NCBI GenBank assembly: GCA_000993615.1 | Contig: LBWM01000008.1 | Location: forward strand, 8,742-70,812 | Reading direction: 5' to 3' | Origin: Candidatus Peregrinibacteria bacterium GW2011_GWF2_39_17 | GTDB taxonomy: Bacteria; Patescibacteriota; Gracilibacteria; UBA1369; UBA12473 | Length of the DNA stretch: 62,071 nt | Shown here: piece by piece, positions 8,212 to 62,071 of the stretch | Layout: each line of letters begins with the position of its first letter | Numbering within the stretch: the stretch's first letter is position 1 | The notes under the pieces: generated by a model | The model's input: the letters and a program-made list of their open reading frames with translations, nothing else | What the model was told of the DNA's origin: nothing | The model's database searches: none | Translations under genes and position numbers: made by a program

Positions 8212-9298
8212 GAGAATTACTTTTTGTTATCGTAGAATAATTTTCAATTGCCCTGTTAAAAGCTTCAGGGTCGTGAGTTTTGGCAAGAGCATGTTCTTTG
8301 GATACTAAATTTTGTGTTACCAGTATGGCCAAAGAGTCATCTAAGGTTTGCATGCCTGCTTCCTTCCCGATTTGAAGCATGGAATAAATTTGATGGGTTT
8401 TTCCCTCTTTTATGCAATTTTTAATAGCATCATTGGCAACCATAATTTCAAAAGCCGGCACTCTCCCCTGCTCGTCTAACCGTTGGACCAAGGTTTGCGA
8501 AATTACGCCTAAAAGCGCGACTGAAAGTTGAGCGCGAATTTGTTGCTGCTGGTACGGGGGGAAAATATCAACAATCCGATCAACGGTTTGAGCCGCATCG
8601 GTAGTATGCAATGTTGATAAAACCAAATGGCCTGTTTCAGCTAAAGTTACGGCTGCGGCAATAGTTTCCAGGTCACGCATTTCTCCAACCATAATAACGT
8701 CCGGATCTTGTCTTAAAGCAGAACGAATAGCATTAGGAAATGAATCCGTATGGACATTAACCTCGCGTTGCGTAATAAGTGAATTTTTGGCTTGATGCAC
8801 AAATTCGATTGGATCTTCAATCGTAATTATGTGACATTTTCGAGTAGTGTTTATATGATTAACCATGGCTGCCAGGGTGGTTGATTTCCCGCTTCCGGTT
8901 GGCCCGGTGACAAGCATTAATCCTCTAGGTTTGAGAGCAAAATCCCCAAAAAGGCGAGGTAATCCAAGTTGTTCAAGCGTTGGTATCTCGCTAGGGATTG
9001 AGCGAAAAGCTAGGCATGGGCCTTCCTGGTCTTGATATAGGTTAACGCGGAATCGACCTTGATCGGCAAGTCGATAGGAAAAATCTATTTCCTTCTTTTT
9101 CTTAAATAATTCGTATTTTTCGGGTCCCGCTATATTTTGAGCAACTTCGCTAATTTCCTCTAACTTAAGAGGTTGAACTTTATCGGTTACATAAAGTTCA
9201 CCATTGCCTAATCTGATTACCGGTGGACTATTGACTTTAAGGTGAAGGTCAGGTGCGTGATTATCAACGATTTGTTTTAAAATTGAATTTATGTCCAT
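8204..9298 (-). CDS. pilT: PilT-family type IV pilus retraction ATPase
   Basis: 364 residues from the ATG at 9298 (MDINSIL), chosen because PilT proteins begin with this short N-terminal domain; an upstream TTG extension of 13 residues would lie beyond the likely promoter. Visible are Walker A GPTGSGKST, the Asp box, Walker B DVIMVGEMRD and the His box (HLVLSTLHTTDA). PilT hexamers hydrolyse ATP to disassemble type IV pili, giving twitching motility or DNA uptake. No other pilus gene is in the window. An extended -10 (TGTTATACT) ends 6 bases before the ATG, so the mRNA should be leaderless. The last 8 bp overlap the cNMP-binding gene. Confidence 0.93.
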   Translation of the reverse strand: MDINSILKQIVDNHAPDLHLKVNSPPVIRLGNGELYVTDKVQPLKLEEISEVAQNIAGPEKYELFKKKKEIDFSYRLADQGRFRVNLYQDQEGPCLAFRSIPSEIPTLEQLGLPRLFGDFALKPRGLMLVTGPTGSGKSTTLAAMVNHINTTRKCHIITIEDPIEFVHQAKNSLITQREVNVHTDSFPNAIRSALRQDPDVIMVGEMRDLETIAAAVTLAETGHLVLSTLHTTDAAQTVDRIVDIFPPYQQQQIRAQLSVALLGVISQTLVQRLDEQGRVPAFEIMVANDAIKNCIKEGKTHQIYSMLQIGKEAGMQTLDDSLAILVTQNLVSKEHALAKTHDPEAFNRAIENYSTITKSNSHD

Positions 9299-10134: not shown

Positions 10135-11784
10135 TTAGTACACCGCCTGCAGATAGCAGGCTTCGCAATATATTTTTCCGGTCCGTTTTGGCGAGTACGA
10201 ACTTAAAATTTGCTTAAGACATTTTGTACAATTTCGATTCCAAAGACATCTAGGGTTTCGTCTTGCAAAACGATCTTTATGGCGTTGATCCGGGTGCCTT
10301 CTTGGTAAGGATAATCCTTGTTTACGGTAAAATTCCAATTCTGATTTAATGAGCCGAAATGGCTTTTTGGTAACTTCGCATAAAATGGCCTGATCCAAAA
10401 TTGAATCCTTTACTTCATCAATCGTGTCAGGTAATTCCTTGGCCGAAATTATCGACGTTACTGAAATTGGAGAGGCGTCTTCATCTTTCCACTTGTATCC
10501 TTTGGCTCTGGCCTGCTCCTTGGATAAGGGGAAATATTCATTAGCCATAGTTTCATTGTAGCTAAATGGTGATAAGACAATAGGTGGGAACTCACCCCAT
10601 TCTTCTGTTTTTTTCAAATGAGCAATAATTAGCGCCATTTTCATTTCATATTCTTCTTTGGTGTACTGCTTATTCAGGATGCAGTATTTCTTTTTTTTCA
10701 ACCCAACGCATCCAAAGCAATGTTCGCAGTTAAAACATAAATCGCAATAATACGACTCCACTAAATTCTCACAGGTAGTACAGCCAATTGCCTTGTAGCT
10801 AAAATCATTGCTCATATTTTCGTATAAAAGCTCTCCCTTACCGCCACCCTCAAAATCATAGCTATCCTTTTGTTCAACCGTTCGACCCGCGAAAGCTACA
10901 TCTTGGCATCGATAAGCAGAAAAGCAATATTTGGCATTCTTGCAATTAAAGATGAAATCCCCAGAAACATTTTCGTTATTAAAGCCGACCGAGGATTTAT
11001 GAATTGCCTCCTTTCGTATTAAATCATCAAACTTAGCTCGAAATTCTTGTACATAATTGTAGGAAGAAAATTTTACTTTTTCTTTTTCAAATTCTTCTTT
11101 GGAAACCGGCTTATTTAAAATATGATATTCCTTTTTTCGTAAATTCCAACAGCCAATACAATTCAAAACGCCTTTACAGTCAAAACAAAACCAGGAATCA
11201 GTAGTATTGCTACAATTCTGGCAGTAAAACGAATGATAATTTTCATTGCCATCAATATTCTCGTAGCAAAGCTCAGATTTATCTAAAAAAAGATTATCAA
11301 CTGAATCCTGGCATTCAAATAAAGTTTGACCAAAATAACAATTTTCATCAAACCAGGATCCGAAAATTAAATAGCAATTTTTGCAATGCGGCGCATAATT
11401 TACATATTCACAATTTTCCGTATCGCGATTAAAAACATTGAATCGCGGAACTACTTTCTGCAAAGCCGCGTATTGCTCAAAAAACGGCTGCCTAAAATCA
11501 TACTCTCGCCCGTAATCTAAACCTTCCCAACCAGCACCCCACCACTCATTTTGTTCATACACCACGAAACCATAATTCGGGTTGTACATCGAAATCATGG
11601 GCTTACCACTAATAACCGATTTATCCTGATACAAAGTCCGATCATTGCGATATGCGAGGCGTCGTTGCATCCGACACATTGGACAAAAGCTAGGCTCAGG
11701 AACTCCTATTTTGGCATAAAAAGCTTGATCAATATCGGTGACGAAAAAGGTATTTTTACAATTTCGACAATTTTTTTGAGACAT
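10135..11784 (-). CDS. Full-length Cys-rich zinc-ribbon protein (zf-trcl-like N-terminus)
   Basis: 549 residues with more than 40 cysteines. The N-terminus is a probable zinc ribbon of the zf-trcl type (CRNCKNTFFVT...FCPMCRMQRR, residues 6-43), followed by a Trp/Tyr-rich linker, two blocks of Cys-X2-Cys ladders (about 125-215 and 270-365), each closed by a KKKEYHILNK or KKKYCILNKQ motif, a helical segment, and a C-terminal ribbon (CTKCLKQIL...YCEACY). Proteins of this architecture are known mainly as hypothetical zinc-ribbon proteins of CPR bacteria. It is the third gene of an operon with two shorter relatives upstream. Metal or nucleic-acid binding is likely; the function is unknown. Confidence 0.8.
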   Translation of the reverse strand: MSQKNCRNCKNTFFVTDIDQAFYAKIGVPEPSFCPMCRMQRRLAYRNDRTLYQDKSVISGKPMISMYNPNYGFVVYEQNEWWGAGWEGLDYGREYDFRQPFFEQYAALQKVVPRFNVFNRDTENCEYVNYAPHCKNCYLIFGSWFDENCYFGQTLFECQDSVDNLFLDKSELCYENIDGNENYHSFYCQNCSNTTDSWFCFDCKGVLNCIGCWNLRKKEYHILNKPVSKEEFEKEKVKFSSYNYVQEFRAKFDDLIRKEAIHKSSVGFNNENVSGDFIFNCKNAKYCFSAYRCQDVAFAGRTVEQKDSYDFEGGGKGELLYENMSNDFSYKAIGCTTCENLVESYYCDLCFNCEHCFGCVGLKKKKYCILNKQYTKEEYEMKMALIIAHLKKTEEWGEFPPIVLSPFSYNETMANEYFPLSKEQARAKGYKWKDEDASPISVTSIISAKELPDTIDEVKDSILDQAILCEVTKKPFRLIKSELEFYRKQGLSLPRRHPDQRHKDRFARRNPRCLWNRNCTKCLKQILSSYSPKRTGKIYCEACYLQAVY

Positions 11785-11798
11785 AAGAGTAAGTTAAA

Positions 11799-12071
11799 TT
11801 AACCGATATGCTTCCAGAAACATTCCTGACAATACACAATGTATTTTGAATCTGCGGAGTAAGTTGAAATAATCTCTTTTTGGCATTTATCACATTTTCG
11901 TTTATAAAGTTTACGTTCATTGCGGAGCGACAATCGTCTTTTTTGTCGACATTCTGGGCAGTTTTCTGGCCAAGGTAAATCCTTTTTCTCATAAAACTTT
12001 TTTTCTTGCTCAATAATTAAAAAATCCTTGCTACACGCTTTGCATTTTTGAATTGTATCGGTTGGTGTCAT
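11799..12071 (-). CDS. Mini zinc-ribbon protein: N- and C-terminal ribbons without the core
   Basis: 90 residues. Residues 10-48 match the zf-trcl-like ribbon of its 549-residue neighbour (CKACSKDFLIIEQEKKFYE...CPECRQKRRL), and the last 35 residues match the neighbour's C-terminal ribbon (CDKCQKEII...YCQECFW). The Cys-ladder core that separates the two ribbons in the neighbour is absent here and is encoded instead by the gene immediately upstream (12089-13042). It lies 17 bp after that gene and 14 bp before the full-length one. A split arrangement of one ancestral protein is the simplest reading. Confidence 0.78.
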   Translation of the reverse strand: MTPTDTIQKCKACSKDFLIIEQEKKFYEKKDLPWPENCPECRQKRRLSLRNERKLYKRKCDKCQKEIISTYSADSKYIVYCQECFWKHIG

Positions 12072-12088
12072 ATTTTAAAGGTAAAAGG

Positions 12089-13042
12089 TTAAGAAAATCC
12101 GTGGATAGCTAATTCAGGATAAGTAGTAGTTAAATGTTTTCCATACGTCCCCTCCCTTCTCATTAGTGCCTTAATCTCTGCTACTTTTTTGGGCCACTCT
12201 TCGGGAGAATATTGTTCATTGAAGATGCAGTATGATCGCCCTTTCATGGTAAAACAACCAAATAGGTGATGTGAACCATAAATATTTTCCGAGTACTCCA
12301 AATCGTATGAATCGAAAACCCCATAACAAAAATGACAATTCGCAATATTCATAGCCGACATCACCTCATAGTTGAGTTCCGATTTATAATAATTATTCGA
12401 GCAATCGTAGGAATCCGTAATCTGCTCGCAATTATTCATGTATCCACAATCCTGGAGCTGCTTAACATCAAAACAGTAAAAACAATTCTTACAATTATAG
12501 AGGTAATCTCCAAACGCATTTTCGTTTTGATCCCCATGCACCATGATGCGAGGAGTGGTGCATTTTAGCGCTTCCACACGACGTTCAATTTCCTCACCTT
12601 CTAATGACTGAAATCCCTTTAAGGCCGCAAAATATTTTTCACGATCATATTTTTCATTAAAAATGTGATATTCCTTCCGACGCAATCCCACACAACCAAA
12701 ACAATCCGTACATCCAATTAAATCCTCGGAGTATTGAAGACTACGCGAGTTCTTACAATCCTGACATTTTCGGCAATCATAACATTGATGACAATCCACA
12801 CAATCGTAACAAAGCTGACAATAAAAACAATAATCGCAATCCACGCAATCCTCTGAATTGTAAAGAAAATAGCCATAATAGCAATCCTGGTCGTATTCAC
12901 TGCCTACCAAAAGGTAACAATTTTTAGAGTTGCCCGTGTAATTAACATAAGGACTATTTTCGCAATTAACTTGAAGGATAGACATGCGCGGGTGCTTGAA
13001 TTGGAGCTCCTGCATGTATTTTAGGTAATTCATAATTATCAT
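12089..13042 (-). CDS. Cys-ladder core protein without terminal ribbons
   Basis: 317 residues. It aligns with the middle of the 549-residue neighbour: the ENSPYVNYTGNSKNCYLLVGS segment corresponds to ENCEYVNYAPHCKNCYLIFGS, and the closing motif RRKEYHIFNEKY to KKKEYHILNK. Between residues about 55 and 110 a cysteine occurs every 3-4 residues (CVDCDYCFYCQLCYDC...). A second, sparser ladder follows at about 180-265. Both terminal zinc ribbons are missing. The start could also be the ATG 3 codons later. First gene of the three-gene operon, with a promoter at 13073-13100. Function unknown; multi-metal binding inferred. Confidence 0.75.
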   Translation of the reverse strand: MIIMNYLKYMQELQFKHPRMSILQVNCENSPYVNYTGNSKNCYLLVGSEYDQDCYYGYFLYNSEDCVDCDYCFYCQLCYDCVDCHQCYDCRKCQDCKNSRSLQYSEDLIGCTDCFGCVGLRRKEYHIFNEKYDREKYFAALKGFQSLEGEEIERRVEALKCTTPRIMVHGDQNENAFGDYLYNCKNCFYCFDVKQLQDCGYMNNCEQITDSYDCSNNYYKSELNYEVMSAMNIANCHFCYGVFDSYDLEYSENIYGSHHLFGCFTMKGRSYCIFNEQYSPEEWPKKVAEIKALMRREGTYGKHLTTTYPELAIHGFS

Positions 13043-15127: not shown

Positions 15128-15517
15128 GGATGGATGATCAGTTAAATTTTAAGGCTATATTTTAGCTAAATAAAGCCAAAAAAGTCAAATGTTTTATTAA
15201 AAAAAGGGGGGAGGGATTTGCTTCATAAGCAATACAAGAAGCTAAAAATCTATTCCCTGTCAAGTATAACCGTTTTTGACAACGCGAAAAATTAACAATA
15301 GAAATAAAAGGATTATTTTTAACCATTAAGATTTAATCCTATTTTTATGTCTCAAAAAGAAGAACCTATTTTCATTCTCCCCATGCTCCCTAGGCGGAGA
15401 AAACCAGAAGAAGCCCCTAGTATAGGAACCCCTTCTCTATTTAAAAATACTCTCGCCGATAGGCGTACAGGGGGGCTTCGAATGGTGGCCATTGTCTTCG
15501 CGGCCAGTCTTACTGCC

Positions 15518-15525
15518 GGGGGGGG
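15518..15525 (+). repeat. Homopolymeric tract of eight G at the frame break
   Basis: Eight G in a row lie where the signal-peptide frame and the mature-protein frame of the surface protein meet. Loss of one G, or gain of two, would restore a single frame. It is the position and type of tract expected for slipped-strand phase variation. Confidence 0.8.
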
Positions 15526-16145
15526 AATCCTGTCCAGCGGAAGACATAGACTATGACGATTGGACCGTTGAGGAAGGAGATTGCGATGATGAAGATCCCT
15601 CGGTACATCCCTTGGCCGCTGAAGTATGCGACGGGGTCGACAACGACTGCGACGGAGAGGTGGATGAAGACGGAGACGACCGAGATAGAGATGGGTATGT
15701 CAAGGAATGGTGTTTTGCGGACGTTGCGGCAGTACCTCGTGGGGATTGCAATGACGAGAACGCATCCATTTACCCCGGTGCATTGGATTCGTCAAATGAC
15801 GGACTTGATGCAGACTGTGGAGGAACGGACGGACCAGATCCTCATGTGGGCCTCAGCGAAAGCTCTTTTTCTACCATTCAGGCCGCCTTAGATGCGGCCG
15901 CAGACGGCCAAATTGTTTGGGTAGGCCCCGGGACATACCTTGAACACGGGCTTAGCATGAATGGGAAAGTGATCGCACTACGATCAACTCATGGGCGGGA
16001 CAACACCACGATTGATGGACAACGGCTAGAAACAGTATTTCTGTTTATTGGGGGAGAAACCTCGAAAAGCACACTCGACGGTTTCACCATCACACGAGGA
16101 AATGCCTCCTACAATTGCAGAGAAGACGAAGCCTGCAACTATTGG

Positions 16146-16845
16146 GGCGGCGGGATGTATCTGTCCTCCTCAAGCCCGACACTAACCGATATGACTTTCA
16201 TTCAAAACTTCGCCACTCTACAAGGTGGAGGAATCTACATGGATTCCTCAAACGCTTTTCTGAATCATATAACCTTTACTGAGAATAATGCCCAAGATGG
16301 TGGTGGAATGTACTTATACGATTCAAACCCGAACATGACTGATATCTATTTAGATTGGAATTTCGCTTCCGAAACCGGGGGCGGAATTGGGATGTATGCC
16401 GCTGATCCAACCATTAACGCGGTCACCCTGACCAGTAACTCCGCCGCGTTGAGAGGCGGGGGGATGGATTTATACTCCTCACACCCAACCATAAGTCACG
16501 CATCATTGGTGGGCAACGAAACAAATTATGATGGCGGCGGGATGTACCTTTATCACTCAAACCCAACCATCTCTCTACTCACCCTGACAGAGAACTTAGC
16601 CGAACGTAATGGCGGCGGGATGTTCGTGGCGGCCTCAAATCCGACCATGACCCAACTAGCTGTAGGAGGAAATTACGCTATTTACAGTGGCGGTGGGATG
16701 TTCTTGTCTGCTTCAAACCCAACAATAACCCAGTCGGTTGTAGCCGGAAATTTTGCCGGCTACGAAGGCGGAGGGATGTATCTAAATAACTCAGCCCCGA
16801 GGGTGCAAGGCTCCATAGTGTCATACAATAGTGGTGATGGATTCA
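16146..16845 (+). repeat. Nine ~75-bp coding repeats (beta-helix rungs)
   Basis: Nine consecutive units of 25-26 codons encode GGG-[IM]-x3-S-[NSDH]-P-[TN]-[ILM], ending in an Asn-rich turn (x-N-x-A). They form the parallel beta-helix of the surface protein. The matching array in the paralog is at 18904-19599. Confidence 0.85.
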
Positions 16846-17303
16846 ATATCTATAATTCAAGTCCAAACAGGCTCCCGAGTTTGACCTACAATAATGCCTA
16901 TGACCCCGATGCAACGAAAAACCTTTCAGGCGTCGAACTTGGCGACACCAATCTCACTGTTGAACCGGGATTCTTGATAAAACCGATATGGGATCCGATC
17001 AAAGAAGTATGGGGATTCGAAGATTTTCATCTGGCCACTGACTCACCCCTCATCAATGCCGGCGCTCCGGATACCGTTGATCCAGATGGTTCACGGGCGG
17101 ATATTGGAATTTATGGCGGCCCGGATGCGGATCGCTGGGACTACGATGGCGATGGCTATTACGCCTACTTTTGGCCAGGGACTGCTGAAGATGTCCCAGA
17201 GGGGTTCAACTCAGAGAATTGGGATAGTAATGACAAAAATCCAAATGAGCAATAAAGATTCACTCAAAGCCGGCATCATTCATAATTTGGGGGGACATTG
17301 TGG

Positions 17304-17858
17304 CTACAAAAAGATGATACTACTCACAATCCCATAAATCAGGACGCTCGTCATGTCTTGCATGACAGTAGCAATTGGCCCTGAATAAGCGGCAGGATCA
17401 TCGTGCAAAATATCAAACATATAGGTTATCAAGAGGGCAACAGTTGGAGCAACTAAAATGGCGAGACATGTTGCAATGGCCACACTTAGTGCAAGAAGAT
17501 TATTATTAAGCCATAACAGCGCAATCGCTCCAGAAAAAATACCAAAAATGACCCCAAAAATTATTCCCAAAATTAATTCTTTGCGAAGATAATTACTAAA
17601 CTTTGCATTCCCTGACCTTAAATCTCTAGAATAAATCGCGCTAGTTTGTGCGCCAATGGCATCGGCCATATAGACTATAAAAGGAAGGAAAAAAGCAATT
17701 TGTATATTCTGAGAAAGAACCTCCTCAAAACGAGAAGTTACTAGTGAGATACCAAGACCAAGTAACAAACCCATAAATAGAGAGGGCGCTCTTAACTTAA
17801 AAAGCATACGTATTGGTTCGTAATCATCATCGACATACAAAGTCGTTTTCTTGTTCAT
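17304..17858 (-). CDS. MgtE-like membrane domain without cytosolic domains
   Basis: 184 residues, consisting only of the MgtE/SLC41 membrane domain: five hydrophobic helices, with RAPSLFMGLLLGLG at the start, FFLPFIVYMADAIGAQTSAIYSRDL in the middle and DDPAAYSGPIATVMQDMTSVLIYG near the end. MgtE proteins conduct Mg2+ and related divalent cations; the Asp in the ASGP...DMTS helix is the known ion-path residue. The N-terminal and CBS gating domains (about 270 residues) are missing, so Mg2+ gating must differ, or the protein pairs with another subunit. It separates two paralogous surface-protein genes and faces the other way. Confidence 0.8.
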   Translation of the reverse strand: MNKKTTLYVDDDYEPIRMLFKLRAPSLFMGLLLGLGISLVTSRFEEVLSQNIQIAFFLPFIVYMADAIGAQTSAIYSRDLRSGNAKFSNYLRKELILGIIFGVIFGIFSGAIALLWLNNNLLALSVAIATCLAILVAPTVALLITYMFDILHDDPAAYSGPIATVMQDMTSVLIYGIVSSIIFL

Positions 17859-17988
17859 ATGTGAACAGTATAAAAATTTTCAAAATTCCATACAATCCCA
17901 TTGTACACAACAATCTCCATCTCCTCCCCTCTCAAAACATCATTCCGCCCAGAATCCACGACTAAACATTTATATATTTCCGACATAA

Positions 17989-18007
17989 TGTCAAGATAAA
18001 CTTGACA
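17989..18007. promoter_or_regulatory. Inverted repeat of two -35 elements between mgtE-like gene and surface protein
   Basis: TGTCAAG-ATAAA-CTTGACA is a perfect 7-bp inverted repeat. Each arm contains a TTGACA -35 hexamer, one for each strand, so it may be an operator or simply back-to-back promoters. Confidence 0.5.
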
Positions 18008-18030
18008 AATAACGATGATATGATCAAAAT
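18002..18030 (+). promoter_or_regulatory. Promoter of the intact surface protein, near-leaderless
   Basis: TTGACA (18002-18007), 17-base spacer and CAAAAT (18025-18030). The ATG at 18040 is 10 bases after the -10, so the transcript would carry only about 0-4 untranslated bases. Confidence 0.6.
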
Positions 18031-18039
18031 ACCTGTTCT

Positions 18040-20013
18040 ATGAAAACTAATTCAGACCAATCATCAAACGCAGAAGCGCTATCCCCGTCAGTACCTCATC
18101 ATCCAACATCACCGACAGTATCAAGGAGTCCTAAATTTGCCCGCTGGTTATGGCTTACCATAGGCATTACTGCTGGCTGTGCTAATACTTCCCCTCCAGA
18201 CGATGACGATGCCTCTGATCATTCTACCCCCCTAATAGGGGATGATGACGCAACCCACGGCAACACTCCTCCGGAAGGTGATGACGATGCCACATCTAGT
18301 GCAGATGATGGGGATGGAGATGGGGTTTCCACTGAGGAAGGAGACTGTAATGACGAAAATCCGCTAGTTAATCCCAGTGCTACGGAAGTGTGTGACGGTA
18401 TAGATAGCGACTGCGATGGAATAATAGAGGGAGAAGACAAAGATAGAGATGGATTTTCTCGGGAATGGTGCCAATCCGAATGGATAGGGATGTCACGTGG
18501 GGATTGCAACGACAAAAATACCACGGTATATCCGGGAGCATCAGATAGTTCAGGAGATGGGATAGATGCGGATTGCGGGGGGACTGATGGGCCAGATCCT
18601 CACGTGGGACTAGGAGAAAATTCATTTACAACTATTCAAGCGGCATTAGATGCCGCTCATGATGGCGAAACGGTATGGGTGGGCCCCGGAACCTATCTAG
18701 AGCACGAACTGACGATGGGCGGAAAGGCTATCGTCCTCATATCTACCGAAGGGGCAACCGAGACAACAATCAAAGGAGGACGCATTGGAACCGTCATACT
18801 TTTCGTGGACGGAGAAAGCGAAGAGAGTACCCTCGACGGCTTCACACTCACGGGAGGAAACGCATCGTACAACTGCAGAGAGGACGGTGCCTGCAAATAT
18901 TGGGGAGGAGGAATATTCATATCGAGATCAAATCCAACATTAAAATGGCTAACTCTATTTAAAAACTACGCTACCGACCAAGGGGGAGGGATCTATTTTG
19001 ATTCAACGACCTCAAGTTTATATCAAACAGACATGACCTGGAACAATGCGCTAGACGGTGGGGGGATGTACCTGTACTCCTCAGATCCGACCATTGAGCA
19101 AGTCGTACTGGAAAAAAATTCAGCTTCAAAAACCGGCGGCGGGATTGGAATGGATGTCTCAAATCCTACAATTAACACAGTCACTCTGAAAAATAACTCC
19201 GCCGCGTGGAGAGGTGCTGGAATGGATTTATCATTCTCTAATCCTATTATAAGCGACACGTTACTAATAGGCAACGAGGCCGCCTATGACGGCGGAGGGG
19301 CGTATTTCTCCCGCTCAAATCCACACTTTACCTTATCTAGATTCATAGGGAATATAGCCGGGATCAACGGTGGCGGGATGTTTCTTTTCGCCTCAAATCC
19401 GAGTATGGACCAAATGGTAGTAACCGAGAATTATGCGGATTTTAGTGGCGGCGGGCTGTTTATGGATGAGGCAAGTCCGAGAATGAACCAAACGGTCGTA
19501 GCCGGAAATTATGCAGGATATGAAGGGGGAGGATTTTGTCTGAAAAATTCAGCCCCTATTACACAAAATTCCGTAATCGCCTACAATAGTGGCGAGGGCT
19601 ACAACATCTACAATCAAACGCCAGATGTACTCTCGCAATGGAGGTATAATAACCTCTATCAACCCGAATCAGGGAAAAATCTTTCAGGCGTCGTTCCCGA
19701 CGACACCAACCTCACTGCTGAACCAAAATTTTTGATAGAACCGATATTTCTCGAGAATAATAGCGTATGGAGATTTGACGATTTTCATCTCTCCATCGAT
19801 TCGCCTCTCGTTGACGCCGGCGCTCCGGATGCCGTTGATCCAGACGGCTCAAGGGCTGATATTGGCCTCTACGGCGGCCCAGATGCGGATGACTGGGACA
19901 GCGATCGTGATGGATTTAATGCCTACTTTTGGTCCGGGACGATAGACGACGCCCCCGAGGGGTTCAACCAGGCACTATATGACAAAGATGATGGAAATTC
20001 GACTATCCACTAA
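18040..20013 (+). CDS. MopE-motif/beta-helix surface protein (intact paralog)
   Basis: 657 residues. After a Ser/Thr/Pro-rich start comes a hydrophobic export segment (about 36-50, WLWLTIGITAGC) whose Cys resembles a lipoprotein site, though the residue at -3 is Thr. Then follow Asp-rich linkers, two MopE-type Cys/Asp motifs (GDCNDENPLVNPSATEVCDGI near 102-125 and GDCNDKNTTVYPGA near 155), nine beta-helix rungs and a C-terminal SPLVDAGAPDAVDPDGSRADIGLYGGPDAD segment. MopE motifs bind copper in methanotrophs; here metal binding is inferred. Sequence identity with the 15347-17255 gene runs through the whole mature part, so the two are duplicates. Local G+C is visibly higher than in the housekeeping genes. 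Probable cell-surface adhesin or pilus-like protein. Confidence 0.8.
   Translation: MKTNSDQSSNAEALSPSVPHHPTSPTVSRSPKFARWLWLTIGITAGCANTSPPDDDDASDHSTPLIGDDDATHGNTPPEGDDDATSSADDGDGDGVSTEEGDCNDENPLVNPSATEVCDGIDSDCDGIIEGEDKDRDGFSREWCQSEWIGMSRGDCNDKNTTVYPGASDSSGDGIDADCGGTDGPDPHVGLGENSFTTIQAALDAAHDGETVWVGPGTYLEHELTMGGKAIVLISTEGATETTIKGGRIGTVILFVDGESEESTLDGFTLTGGNASYNCREDGACKYWGGGIFISRSNPTLKWLTLFKNYATDQGGGIYFDSTTSSLYQTDMTWNNALDGGGMYLYSSDPTIEQVVLEKNSASKTGGGIGMDVSNPTINTVTLKNNSAAWRGAGMDLSFSNPIISDTLLIGNEAAYDGGGAYFSRSNPHFTLSRFIGNIAGINGGGMFLFASNPSMDQMVVTENYADFSGGGLFMDEASPRMNQTVVAGNYAGYEGGGFCLKNSAPITQNSVIAYNSGEGYNIYNQTPDVLSQWRYNNLYQPESGKNLSGVVPDDTNLTAEPKFLIEPIFLENNSVWRFDDFHLSIDSPLVDAGAPDAVDPDGSRADIGLYGGPDADDWDSDRDGFNAYFWSGTIDDAPEGFNQALYDKDDGNSTIH
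18904..19599 (+). repeat. Nine ~75-bp coding repeats (beta-helix rungs)
   Basis: Nine units of 25-26 codons beginning GGG-[IMAL]; one unit begins GAG. They match the order and number of the array at 16146-16845, so the duplication copied the entire array without rung gain or loss. Confidence 0.85.
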
Positions 20014-56215: not shown

Positions 56216-56647
56216 TTAAATAGTAATAAAGCGAGGCTGGCAGCTAAAACAGTAGCCATAAAATTCAAGCGAATGGTTCCTAATATAGAATTTATTTTCT
56301 TTGGCAATTCTTTTTTCTTGATACCCCAAATGGCTAGGCATCTCAACCTTATTTATTGAATTGCAGCCTAAACAAACTAGGTGATGATGGTGATCGTGCG
56401 GCGTTTCGTAATAATTAACTCCGGCAATTGTGTTTTTGATAACAATGCCGTTTTCAGAAAGAAATCGTAGTTCTCGGTAAACGGTTGACCGATTTGGAAA
56501 CATATTTTTTTCTTTTAAATAAATCAAAATATCGGCTTGTGAAATTAGACAACCTAAATTCGTCAAAATCCGAACAAGTTCCCTGCGAATCTTTGTAACT
56601 CTTCCTCCTTGGGCACGAATATTTTTATAAAGAGATTCTTTATTCAT
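56216..56647 (-). CDS. zur: Fur-family regulator, probably Zur
   Basis: 143 residues. Winged helix (about 1-80, ISQADILIYLKEKNMFPNRSTVYRELRFL) and dimer domain with HDHHHHLVCLGC (regulatory His and structural Cys) and a second CxxC (YCFSC). Being the first gene of znuACB identifies it as the zinc-responsive member. It is repressed by its own protein in the usual model; a palindrome overlaps its start codon. Confidence 0.9.
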   Translation of the reverse strand: MNKESLYKNIRAQGGRVTKIRRELVRILTNLGCLISQADILIYLKEKNMFPNRSTVYRELRFLSENGIVIKNTIAGVNYYETPHDHHHHLVCLGCNSINKVEMPSHLGYQEKRIAKENKFYIRNHSLEFYGYCFSCQPRFITI

Positions 56648-56670
56648 AATTGCAACATTGGTGCAATTAT
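56646..56670. promoter_or_regulatory. Zur-type palindrome over the zur start codon
   Basis: ATAATTGCA-N7-TGCAATTAT is a perfect 9-bp inverted repeat that covers the ATG and the predicted start of transcription. It resembles Fur-family operators in length and symmetry, though not a textbook Zur box. Confidence 0.6.
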
Positions 56671-56718: not shown

Positions 56719-59388
56719 TTAGCGTGCTTGATTTTGCCATAAAGTTCTTAAAATTCCGCCATCCTTAATAGGATCCATGATTCCTAATTCTGCTTGAATC
56801 GCCTGCCCAAAGTGTTGTTCAAGCGCAAAAGCTTCTTTCCAATCATAGTCTCCTAAAGTAAAAATTTTCTTCATCATATCATGATAAATTTCAGCTAAAC
56901 GGCCAGTAGTTGGGGAAATTGTGGTTTGAGCTTGCCGTACTCTAACATAATGAACCGCTGCAGATGCCAATAATTGCAGATAAAATAAACGCTTTTCATG
57001 TTCACCCTTAGAATCCAATTGGACACCATGAAATTCAATTTTTACCTGCGGATCTTTATCTCCAAAAACATCTAGCAAAGACCCCCTATGCCAAGAGCGC
57101 TTAACAATGTCCGCACGCCCAAAATTAAACTGAGGATGAGTTAAGCCGCAAGCAATTCTATTTAATCTGCTTAAGGAGGACGACATCACGAATTCCCATT
57201 CCCGAGCTTCCCTTAAGGGGACATCTTTCGGTAAAGCGATATTCATATGAACCGAATAAATAGGGGAAATCAAGCCGCGGTTTTTAAAAATGGCCGATTT
57301 ATCTAAAAAACCAAACCTTTCATCAACAAGAAGTGCCAATAACAACGACTGCATTCCAAAACTCCCTGTAGGAGAAGTCATAACTTCATTAGCATAACGA
57401 TCCCCCCCCATAGGGAGAACATTTAAAAGCCATTGATATAAGTCAGGGTTAATAACCCTATTCCCCTCCATATCTCTTCCAATACATTCTAATTCGATGC
57501 CGGAAGTTAACAAAGCAGGATGACTAGTTCGCCGAGAAAATTCAGCCAGACGTCCAACTTCATCTTTAACTTTCAAAGGGGACAATCCCCGATATATTAA
57601 CAAAGTAGCAAATTGTAAGAAACAAAGTAAATCCGGTGAATCTCCATATAAACGAATAATTTCTCGGTGAGGTGCATCACTATATCCTGCTGGATGAAGC
57701 AGTTCTCCAGGACGCATTGTATCCTGATGACTGGCCAAAAATTCAGTTAAAGCATCCCCACCTAAGACACCCCTTAGAGCTTGCCCTACTAGGGCTCGTT
57801 CAGCATAAATCTCTACAGATTTGGGACCAACTTCTCTCAATAAATCTCCATGATCAGGTAACGCAGCAGCCACCTGTCCCTCATCTCTACCCCTTGATGC
57901 ATCCAGTAAAATTGATCCTTCAATGCCAACCAAAATCACCTCTTTAAGGAGTGCTTGATTAACCATCAAAATTAGTCTATTCCTTAAATCTCTATCTAAA
58001 ATAAGGAGAATTTCTTGTTTTATAGCTCGCAAATTATCTGGGCTAAACTCTCGAATTAAATCTGGAAAAACCATCATCAGCCCATCTAACCTTTGATCTT
58101 GACTAGAAAAAATTCGATGTAATAAGGGAATATCAACGCGCTCAGATAATGACCTAAATAAAATAGCCTGATCAATTTTAGCTTGTAGTTCCCTTTTAAC
58201 TTTTCCATCAGAAAACCTTGGAATTAAAATTTCTTGTATTTTCCCCAAATTCACTAAAGACATATCCCTAAGTATTCCTGCAAAAAGGAGGGGGAAAATT
58301 GAACTTCCAGGTTGATCCTGATTCAAATATTGAAAAATGATACTATCAATATTATCAAAACCTTTAAAAGAAACAGGATGAGCAGCTATTTCTTCTGCTG
58401 ACGACCATCTTTCTACCTCTTCATACCCATCCGAAGCAAAAGCAACAATTTCCGCTAATTGCTCTGGCGGTAAATTTTCAAAATCAAATCTTTTAAAATA
58501 TTGTTGATGTTTATCGAACTTTTTTTCCCTTAAAGGAAATGCCACGTCAAGGCCTGCGCCACCCATTAAAATACCACAGGAAGGAATCCATTCCTTCATT
58601 TCAAGAGGATTAGGAAATGAGGAGGGGTTATCGAAGACAGCATTAAACAACCTACTTAGGCCACCGTGAGAATTAAAACTGGCGCGCGCTGCATCTGCCC
58701 AATTAAATATTATCGGGAATTGTTCTTCATAATAATCTAAAATACATTGCTCCACCGCATCAACTGCCTCCAAAAAGGATTCCGTACCTCGTAACCTGAA
58801 CCAATAATAGAACATTACCTTCAAAGGAGGTTGATTGCATTTAATTTTAGAGACAATCCAATTTGTAACATCTGCCGGTGTTATATCATTTATACTAGCT
58901 GGTAGATCGCAGGCGCATTCCGCTAAAATATCTAAATTCGTCCCTTGCCCAGAGAGCCTAGTCCCTCTGTAATTCATATCTTCCTCTAGGTATTTTGGAA
59001 GAGAGGGCATCGTAAGCAAACCCTTAACTTTTGCGGGTTCGAGACTTCCCCCAACTAACCTAAAAAAATTACACTTCCCGTGAAAGCTAACACTTATGAA
59101 GTGATGAAGAAGTTCATCAGGTAATAAACAAGCTACTAATTTTACTAATACTCCATTATTAGCAGTTAAGGCTATCTCCTCTAGTATTTCCCCTGGATTA
59201 GTTGAAAAAAGATTAAATTCTTTCCTCACTTCGCTAGTTGCTATCCCAAAGCGTTGCTCTAAATCCTCAATTGTTTGAGGCGCATCTGACCAGCGTAAGG
59301 GAGATGAATCTTGCATCTCTGTACCTGATAAAAACCAGGGCAACAGCCCCATTTGTAAGCCTTCTCCTAGCTCAGGCACTCGATCCAT
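56719..59388 (-). CDS. Large protein with a C-terminal amidoligase/GCS-like domain
   Basis: 889 residues. Residues 1-600 are helical and unrecognised. The C-terminal part has the motif pattern of the glutamine-synthetase/GCS-type amidoligase fold: GIELE with E632 and E634 on a first strand, NEVMTSP with E668, SVHMNIAL with H714 and N716, and KIEFHG with E785 and H787. In that superfamily such residues hold Mg2+/ATP and activate a carboxyl group for amide bond formation. It is divergent from the VWA-J-domain operon. No signal peptide or membrane segment. The domain call is by motif alone; PafA (Pup ligase), GCS and amidoligase_2 families share the pattern. Fairly sure it is a real gene, moderately sure of the fold. 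Confidence 0.6.
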   Translation of the reverse strand: MDRVPELGEGLQMGLLPWFLSGTEMQDSSPLRWSDAPQTIEDLEQRFGIATSEVRKEFNLFSTNPGEILEEIALTANNGVLVKLVACLLPDELLHHFISVSFHGKCNFFRLVGGSLEPAKVKGLLTMPSLPKYLEEDMNYRGTRLSGQGTNLDILAECACDLPASINDITPADVTNWIVSKIKCNQPPLKVMFYYWFRLRGTESFLEAVDAVEQCILDYYEEQFPIIFNWADAARASFNSHGGLSRLFNAVFDNPSSFPNPLEMKEWIPSCGILMGGAGLDVAFPLREKKFDKHQQYFKRFDFENLPPEQLAEIVAFASDGYEEVERWSSAEEIAAHPVSFKGFDNIDSIIFQYLNQDQPGSSIFPLLFAGILRDMSLVNLGKIQEILIPRFSDGKVKRELQAKIDQAILFRSLSERVDIPLLHRIFSSQDQRLDGLMMVFPDLIREFSPDNLRAIKQEILLILDRDLRNRLILMVNQALLKEVILVGIEGSILLDASRGRDEGQVAAALPDHGDLLREVGPKSVEIYAERALVGQALRGVLGGDALTEFLASHQDTMRPGELLHPAGYSDAPHREIIRLYGDSPDLLCFLQFATLLIYRGLSPLKVKDEVGRLAEFSRRTSHPALLTSGIELECIGRDMEGNRVINPDLYQWLLNVLPMGGDRYANEVMTSPTGSFGMQSLLLALLVDERFGFLDKSAIFKNRGLISPIYSVHMNIALPKDVPLREAREWEFVMSSSLSRLNRIACGLTHPQFNFGRADIVKRSWHRGSLLDVFGDKDPQVKIEFHGVQLDSKGEHEKRLFYLQLLASAAVHYVRVRQAQTTISPTTGRLAEIYHDMMKKIFTLGDYDWKEAFALEQHFGQAIQAELGIMDPIKDGGILRTLWQNQAR

Positions 59389-59420
59389 AGTGATTTTTTA
59401 AAAAAGACTATATCAAATAC

Positions 59421-59445
59421 TATTATTGACAAAAAGTCAATAATA
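59421..59445. promoter_or_regulatory. 10-bp perfect inverted repeat between the two arms of the module
   Basis: TATTATTGAC-AAAAA-GTCAATAATA lies midway between the divergent ATGs (59388 and 59520). Each arm includes a partial -35 (TTGAC). A single regulator bound here could control both arms. Confidence 0.6.
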
Positions 59446-59459
59446 TTTATTGCAAAATC

Positions 59460-59488
59460 TTGACAAATCACTAATAAGGCCATATTTT
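59460..59488 (+). promoter_or_regulatory. Promoter of the VWA operon
   Basis: TTGACA (59460-59465), 17-base spacer and TATTTT (59483-59488), with a leader of about 25 bases before the ATG at 59520. Confidence 0.5.
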
Positions 59489-59519
59489 GTCATCTTTCCG
59501 TTATTTTTATTTATTTGTT

Positions 59520-60389
59520 ATGTCCCACGAAATTGTTCCTGCTGAAAATAATCAAATAGCCATAAGAAGGCCAGAAGCTAAACATGAACTAGCTAGGCTG
59601 GGGAAGGGAACTGAGACAGCTTTATCCCCCTATGTCCAAAACCAATTAGCCAGGACAAAGCAAGCCGTTCAAGGAGCACAGGCGGCTAGACTGGAAACTT
59701 TGCGAAGAAAACCTCTTTCGGTATATCTCGCTGTGGATTATTCTGGCTCGACGACTGCTCTTGATGCAACTCTTAGAGAAGAGTCTTCCGCTATCACAAG
59801 AGCAGTTATTGCTCAATCACCTACTGCAACAATTAATTTCGGAGTTTTTGGTGGAAATAACTTCATTGAAACGAAACAATCGTCTAGAATCCTAACTAGT
59901 GGACACCAACCAACCAACGGCTGGGCATCAACTTTAAATCAGTATTTAGAAAGGCTAGTGCCTGACCTACATACAGAAGGAACTTCAAATCTAGTCATTG
60001 TTTTTACTGATGCTATCCCTGGTACAGAAAATCTTGCTGCAACAATTGAAAAAATCAATAAAACGGACACTGCCGTTGTTATCGCGTATGTTCCCAGCGA
60101 AGGTTCCTCTATCAACGACCGAGATACGTTAGTTAAGGTAGCAGATCTCTTTAAAAGGGGGGTCTTTTTAGATCTGGAAAAAGTTACCGTAGGAGATTCA
60201 TCCGTATTAAATCCCTTAATCGAAGAGCTGGTCAATGCTGCCGACACAGCTAATCAGAATCAACCACAAGGGAATCCGGGGGCTGCAGCTATCTCTGCCC
60301 ATACCGCCTTTAAAAAACTAGCTGGTGAAGTCGTAACACGAGCTCTTCGCATTAGTTCCACTAAAAACCCCAAAGGTCTTTTAATCTAA
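59520..60389 (+). CDS. VWA-domain protein with intact MIDAS
   Basis: 289 residues from the ATG at 59520 (MSHEIVP); the longer TTG frame would overlap the promoter. A helical N-terminus (about 1-64) precedes a von Willebrand A domain (about 66-240) with complete metal-ion-dependent adhesion site: D73-x-S75-x-S77 (DYSGS), a Thr/Ser in EGTSN and FTDA. No signal peptide, so it is likely cytoplasmic, as in MoxR-VWA and Ter-type complexes. First of three genes, 12 bp before the J-domain gene. Confidence 0.85.
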   Translation: MSHEIVPAENNQIAIRRPEAKHELARLGKGTETALSPYVQNQLARTKQAVQGAQAARLETLRRKPLSVYLAVDYSGSTTALDATLREESSAITRAVIAQSPTATINFGVFGGNNFIETKQSSRILTSGHQPTNGWASTLNQYLERLVPDLHTEGTSNLVIVFTDAIPGTENLAATIEKINKTDTAVVIAYVPSEGSSINDRDTLVKVADLFKRGVFLDLEKVTVGDSSVLNPLIEELVNAADTANQNQPQGNPGAAAISAHTAFKKLAGEVVTRALRISSTKNPKGLLI

Positions 60390-60401
60390 ATTAAATAGTA
60401 T

Positions 60402-61577
60402 ATGCCCCCATTGGAAAAGGAACTAGATGAAGGAATGCGAGCACTAGTCCTCTTGATTGAAGAAGCTGTAGCTCAAGAAGTAGATGATGTTGCCGCAACA
60501 GTATCTGAACGTGTCCAGGAAACTCTAAACGGAACATTACACTTAAGTAAGGAAATTTCCGATGCAATAGGCGTGCCTCCAGAAGATATTCTGGGACCCC
60601 TAGTGCAAATTTTAAGTGATCCAACTGCTACTGGCGCCAAAACCCTACTCCTAAAAATTAAAAAAACAGTCGTAGCATTAAAAGAGCGTATTGCCGATTT
60701 GGAGATGTTAAAAAAACCTGCTGATCAAAGCGTATCGGATCCCGATATAGCGCCCGGCGTTGATAATTCAGAAGCAGCAGCATCCCTCGCAACCAACGCA
60801 AGACTAGAAAGTGAAATTACTCAATTGAGGGCCGAATTGGAATCCCTTAAGGGGGAATTAGCACAAAGTCAGGCTGCCCTCAAAGAGGCTGCGGCCAAGC
60901 TAAGCACAGCCGCCAGAGCGAATAGCGATATCATTTTGATAAGAGAACGATTATTAAAACATCTCCAGGAAGTAGCCCAAGAAATCGAGAGTGCTGTAGT
61001 TATGGCCAGAAATAACGCCACTGAGCCAGAAGGTGAAGCTCTTGTAGCTTTAATTTCCTTTCAAGAAATCGAGGCGTTAGCTAGTCAATGCCAAGCAATA
61101 TTCCAAGGGCTAGCGAGCGAACGTCTAGGTAATTTGCGTCTTTTTGGTAAGGCCTTAGAAGCATACGAAGCGCTTTTGAGGGCAATTGGTGCCGCCGAAA
61201 AAATCCCCTCGAGCACTTTATTTAGCCAGGCAGTTTCTTGTCTCGCGACATTTCAAGCACTCCTAACCATTCAAGAACAAATGATTGCTGAAGATGTCGG
61301 AGAAACGATCAATGTTCCCAGGGAATGGATTGGTGTTAATGGAGTTTTGATTGATTTTTATGAACTCTTAGAAGTACCCTATGGAAGCGATACTGTGGAA
61401 ATAAAAAAAGCTTACCACAGAAAATCAAGAAGGGCTCATCCCGATCGTAATGGTGGAACGGATAATCAAGGATTTGAGCAATTAGCGTTTGCTTGGGAAA
61501 TTCTTGAAGACACCGAAAAAAGAACACTGTATGATAAAGCCTATGCGGTTGCCTATCCAGAAAAACTTCATCAGTAA
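60402..61577 (+). CDS. Coiled-coil protein with C-terminal J domain
   Basis: 391 residues. An N-terminal helical region (about 1-105), a coiled coil (about 128-165, LESEITQLRAELESLKGELAQSQ), another helical bundle (about 175-310) and a J domain at the end (about 317-391) with the catalytic HPD at 346-348 (RAHPDRN). J domains stimulate Hsp70 (DnaK) ATPase and deliver clients. The reversed order, J domain last, differs from DnaJ. No membrane segment. Second gene of the VWA operon, 29 bp before the disordered gene. Confidence 0.85.
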   Translation: MPPLEKELDEGMRALVLLIEEAVAQEVDDVAATVSERVQETLNGTLHLSKEISDAIGVPPEDILGPLVQILSDPTATGAKTLLLKIKKTVVALKERIADLEMLKKPADQSVSDPDIAPGVDNSEAAASLATNARLESEITQLRAELESLKGELAQSQAALKEAAAKLSTAARANSDIILIRERLLKHLQEVAQEIESAVVMARNNATEPEGEALVALISFQEIEALASQCQAIFQGLASERLGNLRLFGKALEAYEALLRAIGAAEKIPSSTLFSQAVSCLATFQALLTIQEQMIAEDVGETINVPREWIGVNGVLIDFYELLEVPYGSDTVEIKKAYHRKSRRAHPDRNGGTDNQGFEQLAFAWEILEDTEKRTLYDKAYAVAYPEKLHQ

Positions 61578-61606
61578 TTAACTTTTATTCTTTTTAATCT
61601 TAAATT

Positions 61607-61870
61607 ATGCCTTCGCAAACTGCTACTATCAAAGATCTTCTTGAAGGATTAGAAGCGGAATTAGACACCGATGCCGCACCAACTCCAACTCCTCCTACAC
61701 CAAAAAGCGATGTGGTCGAATTACCCCCCATGCCAAAAGCCACCGCCTTGCAAGATGCTTTAGAAGCCCTCCCTGATACTTCGCCTGGGCCACAAATTTC
61801 AGGCCGAGCGCAGCCTAACATGACCCCTAGTCGCGGCGCTCCTGAACATGCTACTGCTACGAAAAAATAG
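61607..61870 (+). CDS. Short disordered Pro/Ala-rich protein
   Basis: 87 residues, no fold recognised. Two acidic helical patches (IKDLLEGLEAELDTD and ALQDALEALPD) are linked by TPTPPTPKS-like stretches, ending ATATKK. The antisense frame is a shadow. Third gene of the VWA operon. It may be a substrate, adaptor or regulator of the module; this is inference from position and composition. Coding status is supported by the ATG, operon spacing and in-frame composition. Confidence 0.55.
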   Translation: MPSQTATIKDLLEGLEAELDTDAAPTPTPPTPKSDVVELPPMPKATALQDALEALPDTSPGPQISGRAQPNMTPSRGAPEHATATKK

Positions 61871-62071
61871 GTAAAACAGTATAGTTATAATTTTTCTAGG
61901 TTGGCTGTCCAGTCGGGCCTAGTACCATTGAGTCGGTATTATTTTAGCGTTTCTTGTTGTTCGACACAATTGTGTGTGCGGTTCCATAGTCTCGAGGGCA
62001 CCCCTGAGATGAGGCGGGATTTGTAGAACAAGTTAAAATATACAGCGATTGGAGGTCTCATATCCAGAGTT
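61871..62071. other. Gene-free right edge
   Basis: No open frame stands out in these 201 bases. There are small inverted repeats (CTAGG at 61896-61900 with CCTAG at 61918-61922, and CACAATTGTG) that may form part of an RNA structure, but I do not recognise a family. Confidence 0.3.

Follow-up and report, generated by a model that had tools for sequence, protein, structure and literature searches.

The window, the whole stretch of 62,071 nucleotides analysed here, corresponds to positions 8742–70812 of contig C8 in a 1.3-Mb Peregrinibacteria genome (G000). At its right-hand end, a gene for an 889-residue ligase-like protein faces an operon that encodes a VWA-like protein, a coiled-coil protein with a J domain, and an 87-residue protein (Table 1). 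The four ORFs described by the first-pass annotation are all present, and for each of them, including the 87-residue ORF, a coding signal is found in its own frame and in neither of the other two frames. The contig ends together with the window, 201 bases past the last of these ORFs, so that the operon as read here may be incomplete and may continue beyond. The approximately 200 bases that follow this ORF (61871–62071) contain no listed ORF, and no Rfam match was obtained, with these bases included.

Table 1. Features of the divergent locus, in window coordinates.
Feature	Position	Strand	Basis
Ligase-like protein, 889 aa; helical N-terminal part (about residues 1–600) and putative C-terminal carboxylate-amine ligase domain	56719–59388	-	ORF, four homologues, coding signal
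Predicted catalytic domain, residues 622–885; GhExE E632/E634, D663-x4-E668, H714-x-N716, R764, E785	56734–57525	-	AF2 models, structure matches, conservation
Perfect inverted repeat TATTATTGAC-AAAAA-GTCAATAATA between the two divergent genes	59421–59445	.	Corresponding site at this location in 4/4 other ligase loci
Sigma-70-like promoter TTGACA-17-TATTTT of the VWA operon	59460–59488	+	Consensus match only
VWA-like protein, 289 aa from ATG 59520 (listed 300-aa ORF from TTG 59487)	59520–60389	+	ORF, paralogue in the same genome
Coiled-coil protein, 391 aa; C-terminal J domain (residues 318–378, HPD intact)	60402–61577	+	PF00226 E 7.5e-17; paralogue
P/A/T-rich protein, 87 aa, predicted disordered; possible substrate or tag	61607–61870	+	ORF, coding signal

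An inverted repeat at 56646–56670 (ATAATTGCA-N7-TGCAATTAT) lies just upstream of a gene for a Fur/Zur-type regulator, which is followed by znuA/znuC/znuB-like genes. Together they likely form an operon for zinc uptake that has an operator of its own and is distinct from the ligase; a linkage of the ligase gene to this downstream operon was set aside because of the operator-like repeat and a gap of 71 bases. Two other regions of the window contain related genes in succession. Three consecutive ORFs at 10135–13042 (minus strand) have related sequences that are rich in Cys and treble-clef-like; the first matches zf_Tbcl at E 4.5e-5, the first and third match each other at E 8e-45, and the three are duplicated, possibly split genes. 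Tandem paralogues at 15492–20013 (plus strand; phmmer E 6e-233) have MopE-type metal-binding repeats and a right-handed beta helix.

The C-terminal part of the 889-residue protein had been read as amidoligase-like from its motifs. The AF2 model of the full-length protein is weak (pLDDT 55.6), but its top VIA matches over residues 622–885 are already Dop, plant GCL and PafA. The C-terminal domain modelled alone (residues 560–889) has a pTM of 0.80 and a pLDDT of 72.7, and its Foldseek ranks 1–8 are YbdK-like proteins, Dop, PafA and GS, all of the same superfamily (probability 1.00/0.99 for 1tt4/YbdK, 0.96 for Dop, 0.84 for PafA). All 50 VIA matches of this domain belong to the GS/GCS/PafA superfamily, including Dop (5lrt; Z 9.6, rmsd 4.1, 215 aligned), PafA (4bjr; Z 9.4, rmsd 4.0, 212 aligned), GCL (2gwc; Z 9.2, rmsd 3.6, 197 aligned), YbdK (Z about 8) and GS (Z at most 7.3); matches less than 1 Z apart are treated as tied, and PafA/Dop and GCL are therefore not separable as the nearest relatives. 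The saddle-shaped beta-sheet of the superfamily is present in the AF2 model and its VIA alignments. The modelled structure thus makes a carboxylate-amine ligase fold (GS/GCS/PafA–Dop) well supported, and the amidoligase reading, for which a different fold would have been fatal, survives. What this establishes is membership of the GS-fold superfamily, and identity with neither PafA nor GCS2. Profile searches give little: the protein has no match in Pfam, NCBIfam or PADLOC, neither it nor its homologues match NCBIfam at E≤1, and PHROGs returns a single weak match (E 0.079). In Foldseek with the full-length protein, the N-terminus, where the model is poor, matches only low-scoring helical repeats.

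Homologues of the ligase are encoded at four further loci in three other Peregrinibacteria genomes, one of which (RIFOXYA2_41_18) carries two ligase genes on different contigs. Counting G000, which belongs to the same order as these genomes, the ligase occurs in 4 of the 353 genomes of the class. The window protein is 24–31% identical to its homologues, which are 30–47% identical to each other. A wider distribution was sought and rejected: no homologue was found in IMG/VR viral contigs, phages or plasmids, and 287 genomes of the phylum yielded no convincing homologue, with fragmentary matches at E>0.001 only. Near another ligase gene, at a distance of about 3.6 kb and in an island of large unrecognised proteins, L013:14401-16011 (minus strand) encodes a 536-residue protein with a terminal J domain (PF00226 E 9.5e-9) in which HPD is kept.

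Conservation among the five ligases (the window protein and its four homologues) refines the catalytic set proposed by the first-pass annotation. Glu632, Glu634, Glu668, His714 and Glu785 are invariant and Asn716 is kept in four of five, whereas His787, which had been included, varies (H/K/K/K/R); Gly661, Asp663 and Asn667, beside Glu668 and missing from that set, are also invariant. The superfamily motifs (GhExE, an acidic residue before or on strand 3, HxN on strand 4, and E-x-[KRH] on strand 6; PMC2588565) served as a yardstick. Strand 1 contains G630-h-E632-x-E634 in all five proteins, and the acidic residues of strands 2/3 are Asp663 and Glu668 (5/5). In the AF2 model, Glu668 is located on the strand preceding the third helix-packed strand, and Asp663 in the loop just before the strand of Glu668. 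The [HD]x[NH] motif of strand 4 is H714-x-N716 (H 5/5, N 4/5), [RK]764 ahead of Trp766 is conserved, and strand 6 has a conserved E785-x-[HKR]. The spacing of D663-x4-E668 equals that of Asp94 and Glu99 in Dop, of which Asp94 likely activates the attacking water and Glu99 is a Mg ligand (PMC8599861). By analogy with the superfamily, the 889-residue protein is probably an ATP- and Mg2+-dependent carboxylate-amine ligase that would phosphorylate a carboxylate, most likely that of a Glu side chain, and then join the resulting acyl phosphate to an amine.

In all four other ligase loci, a small gene lies back-to-back with the ligase gene and encodes a protein of 126, 163, 188 or 225 residues with a disordered P/A/R-rich tail. 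E[GP]R occurs among the last eight residues of every tail, followed by 0–4 residues; shuffling gives a chance of 0.003–0.013 per protein for this position, a figure to be read with the motif having been picked after inspection and two of the four proteins being clearly related. A helical head is common to three of the four: one pair matches at E 6e-6, and the third head scores 18.3 bits in one profile test (shuffle maximum 8.8) and 14.0 in a second (exceeded once in 200 shuffles). The small protein of L015/L011 failed the head-domain test and is tied to the others only by position and tail motif. The recognisable family is single-copy and adjoins the ligase gene; it was not found in G000 or G001. 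The 87-residue window protein was rejected as a homologue, as its alignment with the small proteins is no better than those of shuffled sequences; it has no detected homologue elsewhere, lacks E[GP]R, and ends in ATATKK. The conserved partner of the ligase is thus the small divergent protein and not the VWA or J protein. Ancestrally, this partner would consist of a short helical head and a disordered tail ending E-[GP]-R, and may be either a tag that becomes attached or a substrate that is modified at the tail Glu.

This pairing bears on what the ligase acts upon. A helical N-terminus of 600 residues is not known as a feature of GCS enzymes, and its presence here suggests a substrate-recognising enzyme that is probably directed at proteins rather than a small-molecule GCS. 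A GCS2/YbdK-like ligase that joins amino acids or free peptides, with neighbours that merely share its promoter region, is unlikely for this reason and because in all four relatives the ligase has a disordered protein as its partner and the loci have no transporter or metabolic gene in common, even though YbdK and plant GCL match the fold about as well as Dop and PafA do, and the strand-6 E-x-[KR] resembles GCS and GS and not the [QH]x4D of PafA (PMC2588565). Another possibility is a RiPP-like pathway in which the small protein would serve as the precursor: its head would be a helical leader, and its tail would be cyclised or extended by the ligase. The head and variable tail of the small proteins fit such a layout, and a RimK-like ATP-grasp protein encoded elsewhere in G000 (TIGR00768 E 3e-5; see below) would be a graspetide-like counterpart. 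Graspetides typically have repeated core motifs, which the long tails lack; no transporter or protease was recognised as a shared neighbour at the ligase loci, and we know of no RiPP pathway with a place for J-domain and VWA proteins. This possibility is accordingly very unlikely.

At all five loci, the intergenic region between the ligase and the divergent gene contains TTGAC-N5..12-GTCAA, a head-to-head pair of −35-like elements. The 62-kb window has one site of the form TTGAC-N4..12-GTCAA (0.31 expected), and the four loci of the relatives (13–22 kb) have one further site besides those at the ligase intergenic regions. These sequences point to a divergent promoter design shared by all five ligase loci. 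In the lineage of the window, the partner slot under this promoter would be occupied by the VWA–J–87-residue operon.

The likelier start of the VWA protein is ATG 59520 rather than TTG 59487, because the N-terminus of its paralogue aligns with MSHEIV. The protein was previously described as a VWA domain with a full MIDAS. The DxSGS motif and its companion residues (Asp84, Ser86, Ser88, Thr143 and Asp175 in the numbering of the 300-residue ORF) and the strand order agree with this description, and all of these residues are kept in the paralogue; no Pfam model matches, and the VWA assignment is based on motif and strand order. The terminal J domain proposed for the coiled-coil protein is corroborated by PF00226, which matches both J paralogues, with HPD, at E 7.5e-17 (window) and 1.9e-19 (contig C9). 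In PADLOC, the coiled-coil/J proteins gave weak matches and no other family was identified. Homologues of the VWA and J proteins were found in G000 and in no other genome searched, including the ligase carriers; viral contigs and plasmids yielded none.

Contig C9 of the same genome encodes a second VWA protein (34% identical) and a second J protein (35–36%, over the full length) side by side. This pair is followed by a gene for a 508-residue RimK-like ATP-grasp ligase with visible ATP-grasp motifs (TIGR00768 E 3e-5 over residues 197–267, below the curated cut-off; motif YLEGNRRPSL), and the module has no small disordered gene. Divergent to these genes, a 620-residue protein of unrecognised fold is encoded, which has no detectable homology to the 889-residue ligase. 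In a family-level relative, a 52% identical homologue of this protein has the same TrmB regulator as its neighbour, and VWA, J and ATP-grasp genes are lacking at that place. A family of 620–653-residue proteins (L036:6806-8668, minus strand; L053:8403-10286; L054:3654-5615) has a conserved YVLxQIAxxLxxGGxKxG and adjoins a TrmB regulator in two genomes.

A module of four gene families, as originally envisaged for this locus, is thus not supported as a conserved unit outside G000: VWA and J homologues occur in no other genome searched, and the divergent partner at the other four ligase loci is a different one. What stands is that VWA–J is a duplicated unit, associated in G000 with two different ATP-dependent ligase folds, and the second pair with its ATP-grasp gene supports a theme of VWA–J plus ligase. 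The VWA–J–87-residue operon may also be a divergent neighbour that is functionally unrelated to the ligase in G000. The absence of VWA and J genes from the four other ligase loci agrees with this, as does the C9 arrangement, in which the divergent 620-residue gene is paired with TrmB in a relative without VWA–J, so that VWA–J seems to land beside independent genes. Since the divergent slot of the ligase is otherwise always held by a partner, with its promoter design kept, and the sole other VWA–J pair also adjoins a gene for an ATP-dependent ligase, such a chance neighbourhood is considered somewhat unlikely.

The exchange of ligases beside the same VWA–J core in one genome could also indicate a conflict system, for defence or interbacterial competition, in which VWA and J proteins form a sensing and chaperone core and a GCS-like or ATP-grasp effector modifies host or invader proteins. 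The patchy spread of the ligase (4 of 353 class genomes), its fast divergence (24–47% identity), and the logic of core plus variable effector known from MoxR–VWA systems (PMC7159879) are consistent with this idea. PADLOC returned no family apart from the weak coiled-coil/J matches, a MoxR/AAA+ gene was recognised beside neither VWA gene, and phages, plasmids and viral contigs contain no homologues, all of which makes a conflict system improbable.

The best explanation overall, with a probability of roughly 0.4, is a ligase of the PafA/Dop/GCS fold that acts on protein or peptide carboxylates, has a disordered partner as its substrate or tag, and in the window lineage uses the VWA and J proteins as client adaptors. 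These two proteins would pick out clients and pass them between Hsp70 and the ligase, and the second VWA–J pair would serve the ATP-grasp ligase in the same way. Tagging or crosslinking of protein clients, as the first-pass annotation proposed, is plausible, and the second type of ligase beside the VWA–J copy hints at a new route by which selected proteins may be chemically modified. A more specific proposal, which we regard as rather doubtful, is a tagging system apart from pupylation, in which a PafA/Dop-fold ligase joins its disordered partner via the near-C-terminal Glu to clients that are chosen, in one lineage, by VWA and J (Hsp70) adaptors also paired with an ATP-grasp ligase.

To our knowledge, PafA with its Pup/UBact-type tags is the only established case of a GS-fold ligase that attaches protein to protein. 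The ligase appears, from its modelled structure, to be a previously undescribed member of the same structural family as PafA. If it is a second protein-partnered GS-fold family under a shared divergent promoter, the fold has turned to protein modification more than once; if a single reduced genome indeed couples a chaperone/VWA operon to two ATP-dependent ligases of unrelated fold, selection of Hsp70 clients is linked to covalent modification. The ligase fold and the small partner are concrete enough for in vitro work.

No paper that joins ligase, VWA, J-domain and disordered-protein components was found in the open literature. MoxR–VWA ternary conflict systems resemble the present arrangement in that a cytoplasmic VWA protein is accompanied by variable enzymatic components, and their VWA MIDAS has been proposed to bind unstructured peptides (PMC7159879). 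They differ in that no MoxR AAA+ gene was recognised among the ORFs around either VWA gene, the window operon being cut at the contig end, and that the constant neighbour here is a J-domain protein. The 508-residue C9 protein is like RimK-type ATP-grasp ligases in its TIGR00768 match and YLEGNRRPSL motif, and is unlike them in scoring below the cut-off, in its length, and in being encoded after VWA and J genes.

With GCS2/YbdK and plant glutamate-cysteine ligase, the 889-residue protein shares the fold (Z 8.0–9.2; Foldseek probability 1.00/0.99 for YbdK-type structures) and an Ex[RK]-type motif on strand 6. Unlike them, it is not matched by the GCS2 profiles of Pfam and NCBIfam, it is much larger, and its context is a disordered protein rather than thiol metabolism. 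It differs from PafA/Dop in its approximately 600-residue helical N-terminus, in having E785-x-[HKR] where strand 6 of PafA has [QH]x4D (PMC2588565), and in not matching PF03136 (Pup_ligase) at E≤1; a Pup ligase encoded elsewhere in the ligase-carrying genomes was also sought, and PF03136 matched nothing in the four genomes, with a positive C. glutamicum control. Pup is a protein of 50–90 residues with a C-terminal G[EQ], whereas the partners here have 126–225 residues and do not end in G[EQ]. The divergent gene order is likewise unlike that of pupylation, to which VWA and J genes are foreign, and no proteasome gene was noticed on reading the lists of ORFs that neighbour the ligase. The likenesses to PafA/Dop lie in the best structural matches of the ligase (Z 9.1–9.6, tied with plant GCL), the GhExE motif, the D-x4-E spacing as in Dop, and, in the relatives, a ligase gene that adjoins the gene for a small disordered protein in which a Glu lies close to the C-terminus.
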